Origin: Pelosinus propionicus DSM 13327
Lineage (GTDB): Bacteria; Bacillota; Negativicutes; DSM-13327
Length of the DNA: 64,000 nucleotides
Assembly: GCF_900114615.1 (NCBI RefSeq)
Contig: NZ_FOTS01000005.1
Span: 62,001-126,000, forward strand
Direction of reading: 5' to 3'
In this document: piece by piece, positions 731-54,587 of the stretch
Position numbering within the stretch: the stretch's first letter is position 1
Layout: each line of letters opens with the position of its first letter
The notes under the pieces: model-generated
What the model was told of the DNA's origin: nothing
The model's database searches: none
Seen by the model: only the letters and a program-made list of their open reading frames with translations
Program-made: the position numbers and the translations under genes

Positions 731-2782
731 TTGAGAGAGTTTAAGTATAATAAGATATTATTACTGTGCATCGTCATCGGTCTAGCAGCAGCTTTAACCA
801 TTGTCTGGCAGCGCCATAAAATAGAAGAAAGCAGCACGATCATTGAGATGGTTATGGAGTATGAAGATGTTGTGGAATTGGCTCAGCTTGAGGGAGTTCC
901 GACTGACCATGTAATGCAGCGCATGAAAGAAGCTGGAATTACTTCTCTGGCGGTATATGAGACTACACTGGAGAAATTAAATAAAAGCGGCAAGGTAGCT
1001 GTTTTGTCGGGTGCCCAATTGATGCAGCAGTATTATACAGGCATGCAGGGAGATGTAGTTTGGCGTAACTTGATAGAAACAGGCCGCATTCAAGCAGAAG
1101 ATGTTTATGTTGTTGGACGTGATCCGCAAGTTTTTGCGGAAGTAAAGGAAGATCTAATTGAAAGGTTAAGCCCTGAGAGAGTAACAGTCCTTGACAGCCA
1201 GCGTCAGATTTTAGCTGTGAAAGCAAATTATGAAAAAGTAGTAAAATGGAATCTTGGCTTGCCCTCCGATGAAATGCGGTATGTATCTGGCCAAGGATTT
1301 TATATAGTAGCAAGGCCGAGCAATTATACTAAAGTGGAAAAAGAAAATGTAGAAGGCGTATTCGACCGATTGTCAGGGATTGAAAATGTTTCTGCACTGA
1401 TATTTGTTGGTGATGAGGCTTTGGGGTATCCTGATTTGCTGCCTTTGACTTTGGAGAAGGTCAAAGGCAAACAACTGACATTAGGGTTAATTGAACATCC
1501 TTTGCAATTGCAATTTTTTAAACAAGAGGGACTTGTCCCTATGGCTATCGCTAATGATTACAAAGCAGCTCGTGTATATGTGATTCCTAAAGATGAACAA
1601 CCTAAATTAAAATCAGCCGAAGCAGTACAGCGTTGGATTGTAACGGATCAAGAACGCAATATACGCATTAATCTGCTTCGAAAATATGATAAAGCAGAAC
1701 CAGGTAAAACTCTTTTAGAAACGAATTTGGAGTATGTAGCCAATGTGAGAGATGGCCTAATTGCCAGTGGTTTTTCTATTGGTAAAGCTGGAGTCTTTCA
1801 TCCCTATTTTCCTAATATCTTTTTATTAGTGGCAATTACAGTTGGAGCTGTGGCTGCGGGAGTATTATTTTTATCTTTAGTGCGTCCGTTTCCTGTCGGC
1901 TATCAATATGCATTATTTCTTTTACTCTCTCTTGTCTTTGCATTTCCCTTGCTAAAAGGCAGTGGCAATGCAGTGCGTCAGGCAGTAGCTTTATGTAGTG
2001 CCGTTATTTTTCCTGTTTTAGCGATGACGTGGCAGCTTGACCGTTGGAGGAAGATGTCGATAGAAGGCCGGGGAAGTCTAATGGGAATTATAAAAGATGG
2101 AATAGGCGGTTTGATCATTACTGTAATGCTCTCCATGGTTGGTGGTATGTATGTGGCAGCTGTATTAGGTGATGTACGTTTCTTTCTGGAAATGGAAATA
2201 TTTCGAGGCGTAAAAGTGACTTTTGTGGCTCCCTTGCTTCTCATTACCATAATCTACTTAGCGCGGTATAATCTATTTGAAAACGAAGTAGAAGATGAAA
2301 AAGATATTTGGAGTCAGGTTGTAAAATTACTGAATTATCCTCTGTACATTAAAACCTTATTAATAGCTGCTCTGGTAGCCGTTGGTGCTTGGGTCTTTAT
2401 TGGCAGATCCGGTCATACTGCAGGTGTGCCTGTATTGGATATCGAATTAAAAATGCGGGCCTTTTTGGAAAGAGCCATGTATGCCAGACCACGAGGCAAA
2501 GAATTTATGATTGGGCATCCTGCTTTTTTCTTAGCAGTTATGGCTTTGTATCGCAAATGGCCGCGGGTGGTACACTATGCAATGATTGTAGTTGCTACGA
2601 TTGCTCAAGGCTCTTTAGTTGAAACCTTTGCCCATTTGCGGACTCCAGTGCTAATGTCTTTTGTTCGCGGTATAGATGGCATGGTAGCAGGGATTGGTGT
2701 AGGTATAGTAGCAGTACTTGCCGTTCAAGTACTTTGTTACTTGTCTGTTGTCCTAGGAAGGAGACCTGTTAAGAATGAGTGA
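731..2782 (+). CDS. DUF5693 family multi-spanning membrane protein
   Basis: The protein has 683 residues. It has one N-terminal membrane anchor (about residues 8-26, LLLCIVIGLAAALTIVW), then a soluble extracytoplasmic region of about 330 residues, then a membrane domain of roughly eight hydrophobic segments from about residue 355 to the end. This matches the DUF5693 family, which is typically found next to csaB in Firmicutes; its biochemical role is not established. The chosen TTG start has AAGGTGGG about ten bases upstream. The gene overlaps csaB by 8 bases, so the two are almost certainly co-translated. A role in export or assembly of a pyruvylated cell-wall polymer is inference from this neighbour. 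Confidence 0.8.
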   Translation: MREFKYNKILLLCIVIGLAAALTIVWQRHKIEESSTIIEMVMEYEDVVELAQLEGVPTDHVMQRMKEAGITSLAVYETTLEKLNKSGKVAVLSGAQLMQQYYTGMQGDVVWRNLIETGRIQAEDVYVVGRDPQVFAEVKEDLIERLSPERVTVLDSQRQILAVKANYEKVVKWNLGLPSDEMRYVSGQGFYIVARPSNYTKVEKENVEGVFDRLSGIENVSALIFVGDEALGYPDLLPLTLEKVKGKQLTLGLIEHPLQLQFFKQEGLVPMAIANDYKAARVYVIPKDEQPKLKSAEAVQRWIVTDQERNIRINLLRKYDKAEPGKTLLETNLEYVANVRDGLIASGFSIGKAGVFHPYFPNIFLLVAITVGAVAAGVLFLSLVRPFPVGYQYALFLLLSLVFAFPLLKGSGNAVRQAVALCSAVIFPVLAMTWQLDRWRKMSIEGRGSLMGIIKDGIGGLIITVMLSMVGGMYVAAVLGDVRFFLEMEIFRGVKVTFVAPLLLITIIYLARYNLFENEVEDEKDIWSQVVKLLNYPLYIKTLLIAALVAVGAWVFIGRSGHTAGVPVLDIELKMRAFLERAMYARPRGKEFMIGHPAFFLAVMALYRKWPRVVHYAMIVVATIAQGSLVETFAHLRTPVLMSFVRGIDGMVAGIGVGIVAVLAVQVLCYLSVVLGRRPVKNE

Positions 2783-6661: not shown

Positions 6662-6730
6662 TGTCATTGCGAGCATAGCGAAGCAATCCCCTCTTTGTTA
6701 AGAGATTGCTTCGCTGTGCTCGCAAAGACA
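6662..6730. repeat. Intergenic palindromic repeat, family A, copy 2
   Basis: This is the best-preserved copy. GTCATTGCGAGCATAGCGAA and CAATCCC form one side; AGAGATTGCTTCGCTGTGCT followed by CGCAAAGAC forms the other. It lies directly upstream of the M50 protease gene. An in-frame start codon inside this repeat (6706) would extend that gene, but it is rejected because the sequence is repeat and a better ribosome binding site lies downstream. Confidence 0.85.
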
Positions 6731-13262: not shown

Positions 13263-13361
13263 AATTCACATGAAGTTAAATCTTGACATCAATGAAGTCT
13301 TCTTATTATTAGAGAATTATTATATAATAGTTTTATGTGCAATAAGTTAATGAAGTTTACT

Positions 13362-13406
13362 TTGACCGAACGTATGTACTGTGATAAAATTACAGTACAT
13401 ACGTTC
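13362..13406 (+). promoter_or_regulatory. uvrB promoter overlapped by two LexA-box-like sites in a perfect dyad
   Basis: TTGACC (13362-13367) and TAAAAT (13385-13390) are separated by 17 bases, a good sigma-A promoter. A 15-base perfect inverted repeat covers it: GAACGTATGTACTGT at 13368-13382 and ACAGTACATACGTTC at 13392-13406. Each arm contains a near match to the Firmicute SOS box (CGAAC-N4-GTTCG): GAAC-GTAT-GTAC in the spacer and GTAC-ATAC-GTTC just after the -10, each with one mismatch in the GAAC/GTTC core. Binding of LexA would block the polymerase. uvrB is an SOS gene in Bacillus. Confidence 0.8.
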
Positions 13407-13438
13407 TAATGAAATATTTGTAAAGACTGGTGATGTTT

Positions 13439-15499
13439 ATGGCAACGGTACCTAAACTGAATACGGTATACCATGAAGGTGGGATTCCTTTTAAAGTAGA
13501 AGCTCCTTTTGTTCCAATGGGTGACCAGCCGACTGCAATCCATAAGTTGAAAGATGGTATTGTAGCGAAGCAAAAGGCGCAGGTTTTACTAGGAGCGACA
13601 GGAACAGGAAAAACCTTTACCATTGCAAAATTAATTGAAGAAGTGCAAAAGCCAACTTTGGTGATTGCCCATAATAAGACCTTGGCTGCTCAGCTTGCCA
13701 GCGAATTTAAAGAATTCTTTCCTCATAATGCAGTAGAATATTTTGTTAGTTATTATGATTATTATCAGCCTGAGGCGTATATTGCTCATACGGATACTTA
13801 CATTGAAAAAGATTCTTCTATCAATGATGAAATTGATAAATTGCGTCACTCTGCTACAAGTTCTTTATTTGAGCGCCGCGATGTGATAATTGTAGCCAGC
13901 GTGTCTTGTATTTATGGTTTAGGATCTCCTGATGAATATCATGGTCTTGTACTATCTCTTCGCCAAGGACAAACTAAAGATCGAGATGAAATCTTGCGTA
14001 AGTTAGTAGCGATTCAATATGAGCGCAATGATATTAATTTTGTTCGCGGGAAATTTAGAGTTCGAGGAGATGTAGTTGAAATATTTCCTGCTGCCTATGG
14101 AGAAAGAGCCGTTCGAGTGGAATTATTTGGTGATGAAATTGAACGTATTTTAGAGATTGATACGCTTACAGGAGAAATCTTGGCAGAGCGTAAACATATT
14201 GCTATATATCCTGCATCTCACTATGTAACGTCGCGAGAAAACATGCTGCGATCTGTAGCAGATATTGAAGCGGAATTGGAAGTACAGCTAGCAGCATTCA
14301 AGTCAAATGGGAAGCTAGTTGAGGCTCAGCGATTGGAGCAACGCACGAAATATGATCTAGAAATGATGCAGGAAATGGGATATTGTTCGGGAATCGAAAA
14401 TTATTCCAGACATTTGACAGGACGAAATCCAGGAGAGTCTCCGTATACCTTAATTGATTATTTTCCTGAAGATTTTTTAATTGTTATTGACGAATCTCAT
14501 GTAATGCTGCCCCAGCTTCGAGCTATGTATGCAGGAGATCGGGCTCGTAAAGCGTCTTTGGTGGAAAATGGCTTTCGATTGCCATCGGCCTTTGATAATC
14601 GACCTTTGACTTTTTTAGAGTTTTCAGAACGTATTAATCAAATTGTCTATGTCTCTGCTACTCCTAGTGCCTATGAACTGGGAGAAGCCAGCCAAGTTGC
14701 ACAGCAGGTGATTCGTCCTACGGGTCTCATTGACCCAGAAGTGGAAGTACGTCCTATTAAGGGACAAATGGATGATTTGCTTGGTGAAATCAAAATACGG
14801 GTCGCAGCAAATGAGAGAGTGCTGATTACGACGCTAACGAAAAAAATGGCAGAGAATCTTACAGAATTTCTAAAGGAAATGGGGATTCGCGTACGGTATC
14901 TGCATTCCGATATCGTGACTATTGAGCGGGGCGAGATTATTCGTGACTTAAGAGCTGGTGTGTTTGATGTGCTCATCGGTATCAATCTTTTGCGAGAAGG
15001 ATTGGATTTGCCGGAGGTTACGTTAGTCGCCATTTTGGATGCGGATAAAGAGGGATTTCTGCGGTCTGATACTTCCTTGATTCAGACTATCGGCAGAGCA
15101 GCTCGTAATGTGAATGGACGAGTTATTATGTATGCTGATGTGATTACCAAATCCATGGCAAGGGCTATGGATGAAACCGATCGCCGCCGTGATATCCAGA
15201 TGGCGTATAACGAGGAAAATGGCATTACTCCTACCACCATTCAGAAACGGGTTAAAGAGCTGATTGAAACGACAAAAGTGGCTGAAACCCCTGAGTTATA
15301 TCGAACTGACCGCTTAGGTAATATGAGCCAAAGTGAAATGCTAGATCTTATCGGCAACTTGGAAAAAGAAATGCGTCTCGCCTCTAAACAACTGGAATTC
15401 GAACGCGCCGCCGAACTCAGAGATATGATTGTCGAACTAAAAGGGCGGGTAGGGAAAGCAGTAAAAGAAAAAAGCCCTAGAAGTAAGAAGAAAAAGTAG
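13439..15499 (+). CDS. uvrB: Excinuclease ABC subunit B
   Basis: The protein has 686 residues. The Walker A motif [10 protein letters not shown] is at about residue 52, the damage-probing beta-hairpin at [11 protein letters not shown], the DEAD-box-like [10 protein letters not shown] and helicase motifs VSATP and [10 protein letters not shown] follow, and a C-terminal UvrC-binding UVR motif lies around [20 protein letters not shown]. The ATG at 13439 has GGTGA five bases upstream; GTG 13430 and ATG 13433 are possible alternatives. UvrB loads onto DNA lesions with UvrA and hands the site to UvrC (20188). uvrA follows after 140 bases of mostly repeat sequence. Confidence 0.97.
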
Positions 15500-15639: not shown

Positions 15640-18474
15640 ATGAAAGAAAAAATTATTATTAAAGGTGCAAGACAGCACAATTTGAAAAATATTGATATTG
15701 AGATTCCTCGTAATGAGCTGGTCGTCATTACAGGGCTAAGCGGGTCAGGCAAATCTTCTTTAGCCTTTGATACCATTTATGCAGAAGGGCAGAGGCGGTA
15801 TGTTGAATCTTTGTCTGCTTATGCCCGTCAGTTTCTGGGGCAGATGGACAAGCCTGATGTAGATTATATAGAAGGTTTGTCTCCTGCCATTTCCATTGAT
15901 CAGAAAACAACCAGCCGTAATCCTCGTTCCACGGTAGGGACAGTAACGGAAATTTATGATTACTTACGTTTGTTATTTGCCAGAGCAGGTCGTCCTCATT
16001 GTCCCAAATGCGGCAAGGCTATTACGCAGCAGACCATTGAGCAGATGGTTGATCAATTAGTAGCTTTGCCTGAAGGAACTCGTCTGATGCTCATTGCTGG
16101 AGTCGTGCGAGGAAAAAAAGGCGAGCATCAAAAAGTGCTGGAAGATATTCGTAAGAATGGATATGTCCGAGTACGAGTCGATGGTGAAGTTCGTGACGTA
16201 GCAGATGAAATAAAGTTAGAAAAAAATAAAAAGCACACGATTGAAGTGGTGGTAGATCGGATTGTTCTCCGAGAAGGAATCAATCAGCGACTGGCTGATT
16301 CTCTTGAGACAGCTCTCACTTTGGGTGAAGGTGTCGTCAATGTGGACGTAATAGGAGATAAGGAGCGAATCTTTAGCCAAAATTTTGCTTGTGTTGATTG
16401 CGGTATTAGTCTGCCTGAAATTGCACCCCGGATGTTTTCCTTCAACAGCCCTTTTGGTGCGTGCCCGGATTGTACAGGATTAGGCAATAATATGGAAGTA
16501 GACCGTTCCTTAATTGTCCCTGATACGAGTGTGGCTCTTATTGATGGTGCTATCACGCCTTTGAGTAAAAATACTAACTCTTATTTTATGTGCCAGTTAG
16601 AAGCGGTACTGGATAAATATAATTTCTCTTTGCACGACACCTGGGAAAATTTATCTCCACAAGTGCAAGAGATTATTATGACAGGTTCAGGTGCAGAACA
16701 ATTTGATTTTGTATATGATAATATGTATGGAGAAACAAAAACCTATCACGCTGTTTTTGAAGGTGTAATTCCATTATTAAATCGTCGTTATCGGGAAACA
16801 GTATCTGATTGGTCCCGAGAAGATATTGAAGAATATATGAGTTCTAAGCCTTGCCCTACATGTAAGGGCGCACGATTAAAACCAGAAACCTTGTCGGTTA
16901 AGATCGGCGGTAAAAATATCTATGAGGTGACAGCAGGAACCATTGCAGAAACGCAGCATTTCTTTTCTAATCTAGACTTAACTGAAAGAGAGAAGACCAT
17001 TGCTCACCAAATTCTAAAAGAGATTCATGCTCGTTTGGGATTTCTTCTCAATGTGGGATTAGATTATCTAACCCTAAGTCGGGCCGCAGGCACCTTATCA
17101 GGGGGAGAAGCTCAGCGTATACGGCTAGCTACTCAGATTGGCTCCGGGCTGGTCGGTGTACTATATATACTGGATGAACCAAGCATCGGTTTGCATCAGC
17201 GGGATAACAACCGTCTGTTAACTACCTTGAAACATTTAAGGGATGTTGGCAATAGTCTGCTGGTAGTTGAGCATGATGAAGATACGATGTACGAAGCGGA
17301 TCACATTATTGATATTGGTCCGGCTGCTGGTGCTCATGGCGGTCAAGTAGTGGTTCAAGGGACGGTAGAAGAGATTAAGGCTTGCTCAGATTCCATTACA
17401 GGACAATATCTGAAAGGAAGCAGGTATATCCCAATACCCGCCGTGCGGCGTAAACCCAATGGAAAGTGGCTGGAAGTTGTAGGAGCGAAAGAAAATAACT
17501 TAAAAAAATTAACGGTCAAATTTCCGTTAGGTGTGTTTACTGCTGTAACAGGTGTATCTGGTTCAGGGAAGAGTACACTGGTAAATGAGATTTTATACAA
17601 GGGGCTGGCAGGACGGGTATATCGAGGTACAAAGACTCGGCCTGGTGCTCATGATGACATTCGTGGTGTAGAATATATTGATAAAATTATTGAGATTGAT
17701 CAGTCGCCCATCGGTCGCACTCCTCGATCTAACCCAGCTACGTACACGGGCTTGTTTGATGTGATTCGAGAAGTATTCAGTCAAACCCAGGAAGCAAAAA
17801 TGCGAGGTTATAAGCCAGGACGTTTCAGCTTTAATGTAAAAGGCGGGCGATGTGAGGCCTGCCGCGGTGATGGGATTATTAAGATCGAAATGCATTTCTT
17901 ACCGGACGTATATGTTCCTTGTGAAGTATGTAAAGGAGCTCGGTATAATCGGGAAACCCTAGAAGTTCGTTATAAAGGGAAGAGTATTTCTCAGGTTCTG
18001 GATATGGTGGTAGATGAAGGAGTAGAATTCTTTCAGAACCTCCCCAAACTTCAGCGCAAGCTGCAAATACTACAGGATGTTGGTTTAGGATATATTAAAT
18101 TAGGACAACCTGCAACGACTCTTTCAGGGGGGGAAGCACAGCGTATTAAGTTGGCAACGGAACTAGCAAGACGCAGTACGGGCAAGACCTTATATATTCT
18201 CGATGAGCCTACTACAGGTTTGCATACTGCTGATATTCACCGCCTGCTTACTGTGCTGCAGCGTTTAGTCGATGGGGGTGACACCGTTGTTGTTATTGAA
18301 CATAATCTGGATGTCATTAAAACTGCGGATTATGTAATTGACTTAGGACCCGAAGGCGGAAGCCGTGGCGGTACCATTGTTGCCAAAGGAACTCCGGAAG
18401 ACATCGTAAAGGTCAAGGCTTCCTATACAGGACAATTTCTAGCGCCAATTCTGGAAAGAGGAATACGGGAGTAA
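15640..18474 (+). CDS. uvrA: Excinuclease ABC subunit A
   Basis: The protein has 944 residues, normal for UvrA. It has two ABC ATPase modules: Walker [15 protein letters not shown] near residue 31 and [13 protein letters not shown] near residue 635, and the signature LSGGEAQRI twice. Zinc-binding cysteine pairs CPKCGK, CVDCG/CPDC and [14 protein letters not shown] are present. It recognises bulky DNA damage and delivers UvrB. AGAAAGGA precedes the ATG. No separate SOS-like promoter was seen in the repeat-filled gap, so it may be read through from the uvrB promoter. It is convergent with the accC-type gene. Confidence 0.98.
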
Positions 18475-54327: not shown

Positions 54328-54384
54328 TTGCCGTTCGTTATGGTGAAAGTCAAAAAAAGAAAATGATCTGGCGGTTGAACGGAA

Positions 54385-54426
54385 CCCCTTGTATTGGACA
54401 TTGCAGAAGAAGTCCAATACAAGGGG
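54385..54426 (+). terminator. Intrinsic terminator after the aminopeptidase
   Basis: CCCCTTGTATTGGAC (54385-54399) and GTCCAATACAAGGGG (54412-54426) are perfect complements, followed by TATTTTG. The gap from here to 54682 holds the sigma-54 promoter and possible activator sites, and no gene. Confidence 0.85.
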
Positions 54427-54587
54427 TATTTTGTGTTTAGCATCAATTGCAATAATTTGTTGAGACGCTTCTCTTAGACTTTTTTTTGTTATAAAGTGTA
54501 TTTAATATTTCATGTAAAGAGTGAATTTTTTGTTAATTTTAATGATCTATTTGTACTTTTAAAAGCCATGCTGCTTTTTTTGTATGT

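Follow-up and report, generated by a model that had tools for sequence, protein, structure and literature searches.

A perfect 15-bp dyad around the -10 element of the Pelosinus propionicus uvrB promoter as a probable twin LexA operator

In the 64,000-nt stretch of the Pelosinus propionicus DSM 13327 genome that we analysed (hereafter, the window), uvrB and uvrA follow one another on the forward strand and are preceded by a promoter-like sequence, P1, that is interlaced with a perfect inverted repeat (Table 1). P1 scored 10/12 in the promoter scan and has a TG preceding its -10 hexamer. Taken by itself this match carries no significance, as the scan found 3 promoter-like sites compared to 6.3 in shuffled sequences. 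The uvrB ATG has GGTGAT ahead of it. The 15 top-scoring LexA-like sites of the window all lie outside the gap between uvrB and uvrA, and the two genes probably form one SOS operon. Further upstream lies an AT-rich palindromic block that has one exact copy in the window and 11 of 12 columns invariant across all eight genomes of the genus; it may hold the -10 of a further uvrB promoter, P2, that is independent of LexA.

Table 1. Features of the uvrB promoter region and the genes downstream of it (positions within the window).
Feature	Position	Strand	Basis
AT-rich palindromic block TATTATATAATA, including TATAAT at 13323-13328	13318..13329	+	conservation; putative function
-35 hexamer TTGACC of P1	13362..13367	+	direct reading, promoter scan; invariant in 8/8 genus genomes
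Left LexA box CGAACGTATGTACT	13367..13380	+	PWM 12.2 bits, best in the window; invariant in 8/8 genus genomes
Perfect 15-bp dyad with a 9-nt gap holding the -10	13368..13406	.	inverted-repeat search; identical in G000-G004 and G007
Left dyad arm GAACGTATGTACTGT	13368..13382		
Extended -10, TGTG-A-TAAAAT, joined to the end of the left box	13380..13390	+	sequence read, promoter scan
-10 hexamer TAAAAT of P1	13385..13390		17-bp spacer from TTGACC
Right dyad arm ACAGTACATACGTTC	13392..13406		15/15 complementary to left arm
Right LexA box AGTACATACGTTCT	13394..13407	+	PWM 10.0 bits, third in the window; found in 6/8 genus genomes
uvrB, excinuclease ABC subunit B	13439..15499	+	NF003673/TIGR00631 above cut-off
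uvrA	15640..18474	+	downstream of uvrB

The two arms of the dyad enclose the gap GATAAAATT. Re-reading of the sequence and the inverted-repeat search gave exactly the 15-base dyad around a TTGACC-17-TAAAAT uvrB promoter that an earlier note on this DNA had described, and its statement that each arm misses GAAC-N4-GTTC by a single base holds for both 12-bp cores, GAACGTATGTAC and GTACATACGTTC, which have 7 of the 8 core bases. The left box sits within the spacer of P1, where the final C of the -35 hexamer doubles as its outer flank and the half nearer the -10 is the deviant one (GTAC). The right box starts 4 bp past the -10 and would cover the P1 start site, expected at about position 13397. 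The boxes overlap the promoter of an SOS gene, in its spacer and start region, the promoter being recognised as a sequence match.

The LexA matrix used for scoring was derived from lexA and recA promoter regions of Negativicutes, 20 genomes for each gene, with no uvrB sequence included. Requiring the full GAAC-N4-GTTY core, we obtained 54 sites (24 distinct) from 37 of these 40 regions, with the consensus CGAAC-N4-GTTTG. The training sites scored from 12.2 to 21.0 bits, and the right arm lies under all 24 distinct ones. Because 3.0 sites scoring at least 10.0 bits are expected by chance per simulated 64 kb, the arm scores alone are unconvincing. Perfect 15-mer inverted pairs with a gap of 3-40 were counted 3 times in the window and 0 times in 60 simulated 64-kb sequences; the other two are taken to be one 16-bp repeat (54384-54427) that was counted in two registers. 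The window therefore has a further perfect inverted repeat, and the uvrB dyad is not unique there. A long imperfect inverted repeat of the TCATTGCGAGCATAGCGAAGCAATC type also occurs twice, at 6662-6730 and 487-551, and is by appearance a dispersed intergenic repeat. Genome-wide, single GAAC boxes were fewer than matches to the reversed-pattern control (80 compared to 168; 185 compared to 498 in a second count), so that single matches prove nothing. A loose twin-site pattern was mildly over its control (54 compared to 32 matches in 21 genomes) and its matches include, by eye, terminator-like repeats; this excess was too weak and was dropped as stand-alone evidence. The dyad exceeds chance through its position, conservation and recurrence.

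To follow the element across the class, 60 genomes were sampled, of which 58 yielded a uvrB upstream region; the two exceptions were G008, because of a contig edge, and G033, which has no orthologous uvrB. Where the protein match began past residue 1, the uvrB start was extrapolated for part of the regions. Within Pelosinus (eight genomes), the whole 39-bp block is invariant in six; G005 and G006 keep the left box and have neither the right arm nor the dyad. The palindrome is intact in most of the genus, so that its lack of conservation near uvrB, which the earlier note had named as telling against its reading, is not what we observed. In the uvrB tree, from which G007 was omitted (uvrB fragmented), G005 and G006 form a pair that is sister to the five included dyad-bearing genomes. 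Among G000-G004, just 68 of the 250 fourfold columns in uvrB show no change, so that 39 unchanged positions in the promoter block point to strong constraint. Across the class, a LexA site of at least 10 bits lies ahead of uvrB in 22 of the 58 genomes, and none was present within 200 bp of uvrB in the other 36. Twin sites occur at uvrB in 9 of the 58 genomes, representing four genera; those outside the genus are in G009 (22 bp apart), G041 (33 bp) and G058 (32 bp). In all uvrB twins the first box is inside a 17-bp spacer, as read by eye.

The P. propionicus genome encodes a matching LexA. It has one lexA match, which scores above the TIGR00498 cut-off, contains both PF01726 and PF00717, and has LexA proteins as its best relatives of solved structure. 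Canonical boxes lie ahead of lexA and recA, the recA promoter having the single box CGAACAAATGTTTG, and also ahead of a Y-family polymerase gene, a radical-SAM repair gene and a ydjM-family gene. Three LexA boxes lie in the region between lexA and a divergent gene that we call yneA-like rather than yneA because the protein scores 54.1 against an NCBIfam cut-off of 60. The promoter of this gene reads TTGACC-GAACATATGTACTGTG-T-TAAAAT on the minus strand, with the same deviant box (7/8 core bases) as uvrB and a second box past the -10.

Near-perfect LexA boxes were seen ahead of the Y-family polymerase gene (L005 1503-1516), the TIGR03916 radical-SAM repair gene (L175 1077-1090), a serine-recombinase-like gene (L010 1503-1516) and a tyrosine-integrase-like gene (L062 1335-1348), the last two labelled by eye. 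Twin sites of 18.3 and 16.1 bits, 30 bp apart, were also observed in this genome at C46:53457-53498, flanked by a YdjM-family gene (PF04307) and a PAS-GGDEF gene (L063 1104-1439, minus strand, and 1596-2474, plus strand). In E. coli, ydjM is an SOS gene. Because the YdjM-family neighbour is kept in both this genome and G006, and the PAS-GGDEF gene was not found beside the G006 copy (L182), ydjM is a likelier target of this twin than the PAS-GGDEF gene that we had considered first.

A scan of 84,980 species in which only the left-box/-10 module was sought, with a second box not required, yielded 21 stretches in 17 genomes. The sequence TGTG-N-TANNAT after the box in all of them was demanded by the search pattern. 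A second LexA site (10.0-21.0 bits) lies 27-37 bp downstream in 21 of 21 stretches, compared to 10 of 3558 same-size control windows within those loci. The modules precede uvrB (5) or a YneA-like gene (15), and one, in Sporomusa ovata, has a broken lexA copy as its neighbour. Of the uvrB stretches, four are from Pelosinus genomes, apparently the same as G002, G003, G004 and G007, and are not independent. All but two stretches, labelled only Bacillota, are from lineages that we take to be Negativicutes, the assignments outside Pelosinus being presumptive. At the other loci the right boxes are mostly plain LexA sites. S. ovata has two lexA-type copies on one contig (L213 and L215) with a module beside each, and one of these copies is split into separate reading frames. 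The earlier note's claim of an SOS element with two LexA boxes at the uvrB promoter gains support from the conservation within the genus and from these twins at yneA-like genes of relatives. The check that it had proposed, for the same double box before recA and lexA, turned up twin boxes at the gene divergent from lexA in relatives and a single box at recA of P. propionicus itself.

The most probable explanation by a wide measure is that the uvrB dyad is a twin LexA operator that blocks P1 from both sides of the -10. One LexA dimer would bind the weakish left box within the -35/-10 spacer, and a second dimer would bind the mirror box and cover approximately -2 to +10, so that RNA polymerase would be excluded from both sides. 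Either box alone should stop polymerase, and both together should cut leak; RecA-driven LexA self-cleavage would then free uvrB and probably uvrA too. From the sequence we infer LexA binding at P1, double occupancy, independent binding of the two dimers and SOS induction. The GTAC deviation of the left box is perhaps a compromise between repressor and polymerase, as this half runs into the extended -10 TGTG; such a compromise is not obligatory because the twin beside lexA in G006 has GTTC preceding TGTG. In favour of the twin operator, we count the sequence itself, its conservation, the match to the lexA and recA boxes of the class, and the recurrence at yneA-like genes and beside ydjM. Against it, we count that neither arm has a full core, that the right arm scores below the training range and is missing from G005 and G006, that most uvrB regions of the class have no 10-bit site, and that the loose twin pattern exceeded its control so little.

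The two boxes show no fixed geometry. Their spacing is 27-37 bp in the 21 modules (Rayleigh p 0.37) and 20-38 bp in a wider list of 18 (Rayleigh p 0.08 for all and 0.59 for distinct values), and neither a helical phase nor a fixed spacing was found in either set. Rigid LexA cooperativity at twin boxes is therefore unsupported, as is the cooperative binding that the earlier note had raised as a possibility. Spacing free of phase speaks instead for independent binding, as at the dinBox1/dinBox1b pair of phage GIL01, which LexA binds independently and not cooperatively (PMC4551915).

A less favoured reading, which we regard as unlikely while still giving it some weight, is that the left box is the sole working operator and that an inverted-repeat template switch left the right arm behind as a by-product that adds little. 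The left box is invariant in all eight genus genomes and the right arm is missing in two; the right arm moreover mirrors the deviant GTAC plus the TGT outside the core, and none of the other 17 module twins mirrors more than 10 of 12 core positions. GIL01 P1 has one strong LexA site and a weaker one; the two are bound independently, and the weaker site has little effect (PMC4551915). However, the right arm is invariant in six genomes, of which those compared have diverged from G000 at 32-57% of their fourfold sites, and a useless arm would not stay unchanged over such divergence; a second box is also present in every one of the related modules.

It is highly improbable that the dyad acts not as an operator but by forming a hairpin in RNA (or a cruciform in DNA), on P2 or read-through transcripts. 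A transcript spanning the dyad folds at -28.3 kcal/mol (z -4.4), and the conserved TATAAT-containing block lies upstream. However, G005 and G006 retain this block without the dyad, the arms fit the LexA motif, and the six copies are identical, hence there is no covariation; with no T-run downstream, the dyad is not a terminator. P1 RNA would begin within the right arm and has no unusual structure (z 0.94). Because the left arm is upstream of the predicted start, P1 RNA cannot fold into the leader hairpin offered by the earlier note; in two genus genomes the right arm is missing altogether. Rfam gave 0 matches at the gathering threshold within the 64-kb window, and hence no known RNA element.

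Slightly less credible again is a different repressor with a long palindromic operator: the arms do run 3 bp past the LexA core and each core is one base off, but the same deviant box is found at the lexA-divergent gene, the left box persists alone in G005 and G006, and at other loci the box past the -10 is in most cases an ordinary LexA site. A palindrome arising by chance can practically be dismissed, for although the window has another perfect 16-bp inverted repeat and the single arms are within 64-kb chance, this one is invariant in six genomes and its design recurs.

Among the module twins, the exactness of the mirror is peculiar to Pelosinus uvrB. The 17 module twins outside Pelosinus uvrB mirror at 8-10 of 12 core positions, the right box having its own near-consensus half, and the four Pelosinus uvrB stretches mirror at 12 of 12 core positions plus 3 inner bases, the deviant base included. 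This looks like inverted copying, perhaps via template switching, a known process at imperfect inverted repeats. It could equally be that the ancestor had the dyad and that G005 and G006 lost the right arm. We tentatively propose, as a conjecture that may well prove wrong, that Sporomusaceae-type Negativicutes share an SOS promoter cassette, GAAC-RTAY-GTAC-TGTG-N-TANNAT, with a LexA half-site fused to the extended -10 and always with a second box past the -10, and that in the Pelosinus lineage replication template switching wrote or homogenised the second uvrB box as an exact inverted copy of the first, a mutation process thereby creating a regulatory site.

Among the closest known counterparts is the uvrBA promoter of Clostridioides difficile, which is bound by LexA (PMC4234289) and shares both the GAAC-N4-GTTC motif of the Bacillus/Clostridium-type operator and the target operon. 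In contrast, Pelosinus has two mirror boxes flanking the -10, each with one deviant base towards it. GIL01 P1 likewise has two adjacent LexA sites of the Gram-positive motif, one of them weaker, but these lie downstream of the start and possibly overlap, whereas the Pelosinus sites flank the -10, and the weak GIL01 site needs the phage protein gp7 for stable binding (PMC4551915). Several LexA sites per SOS promoter are also reported for E. coli, with two boxes at lexA and two overlapping boxes in colicin operators (PMC2994835), and four at uvrB, where LexA-box1 lies between the -35 and the -10 (PMC6015884). The earlier note's view that two boxes are unusual was therefore overstated. The E. coli sites differ in their motif (CTG-N10-CAG) and in the overlap of the colicin boxes, and the accessible text of these sources reports no perfect mirror. 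The UmuDAb operator of Acinetobacter is similarly a large SOS palindrome, for which a model places two binding sites (PMC11332147), but it involves another repressor and motif and is a single 21-bp element with a core. A LysM-type, cell-division-suppressor-like gene divergent from lexA is known from the lexA/yneA (sosA) arrangement of Bacillota (PMC6851548) and is present here too; compared to that arrangement, the yneA-like promoter of these Negativicutes shares its box-plus-extended -10 module with uvrB.

The probable twin operator at uvrB is real as a design and varies a familiar SOS circuit to a modest degree. What is new is the promoter-fused twin-box design in Negativicutes, together with its exact mirror copy at Pelosinus uvrB. 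No dedicated LexA-regulon study in Negativicutes was found in the literature searched, and the present analysis extends the LexA regulon to this class. The locus would offer a compact test of the way in which paired LexA boxes flanking a -10 determine basal repression. The sister genomes, six carrying the second box at this gene and two lacking it, provide a natural experiment. If the template-switch origin is true, the dyad would show, at a known place in the phylogeny, an operator created by inverted-repeat mutation.
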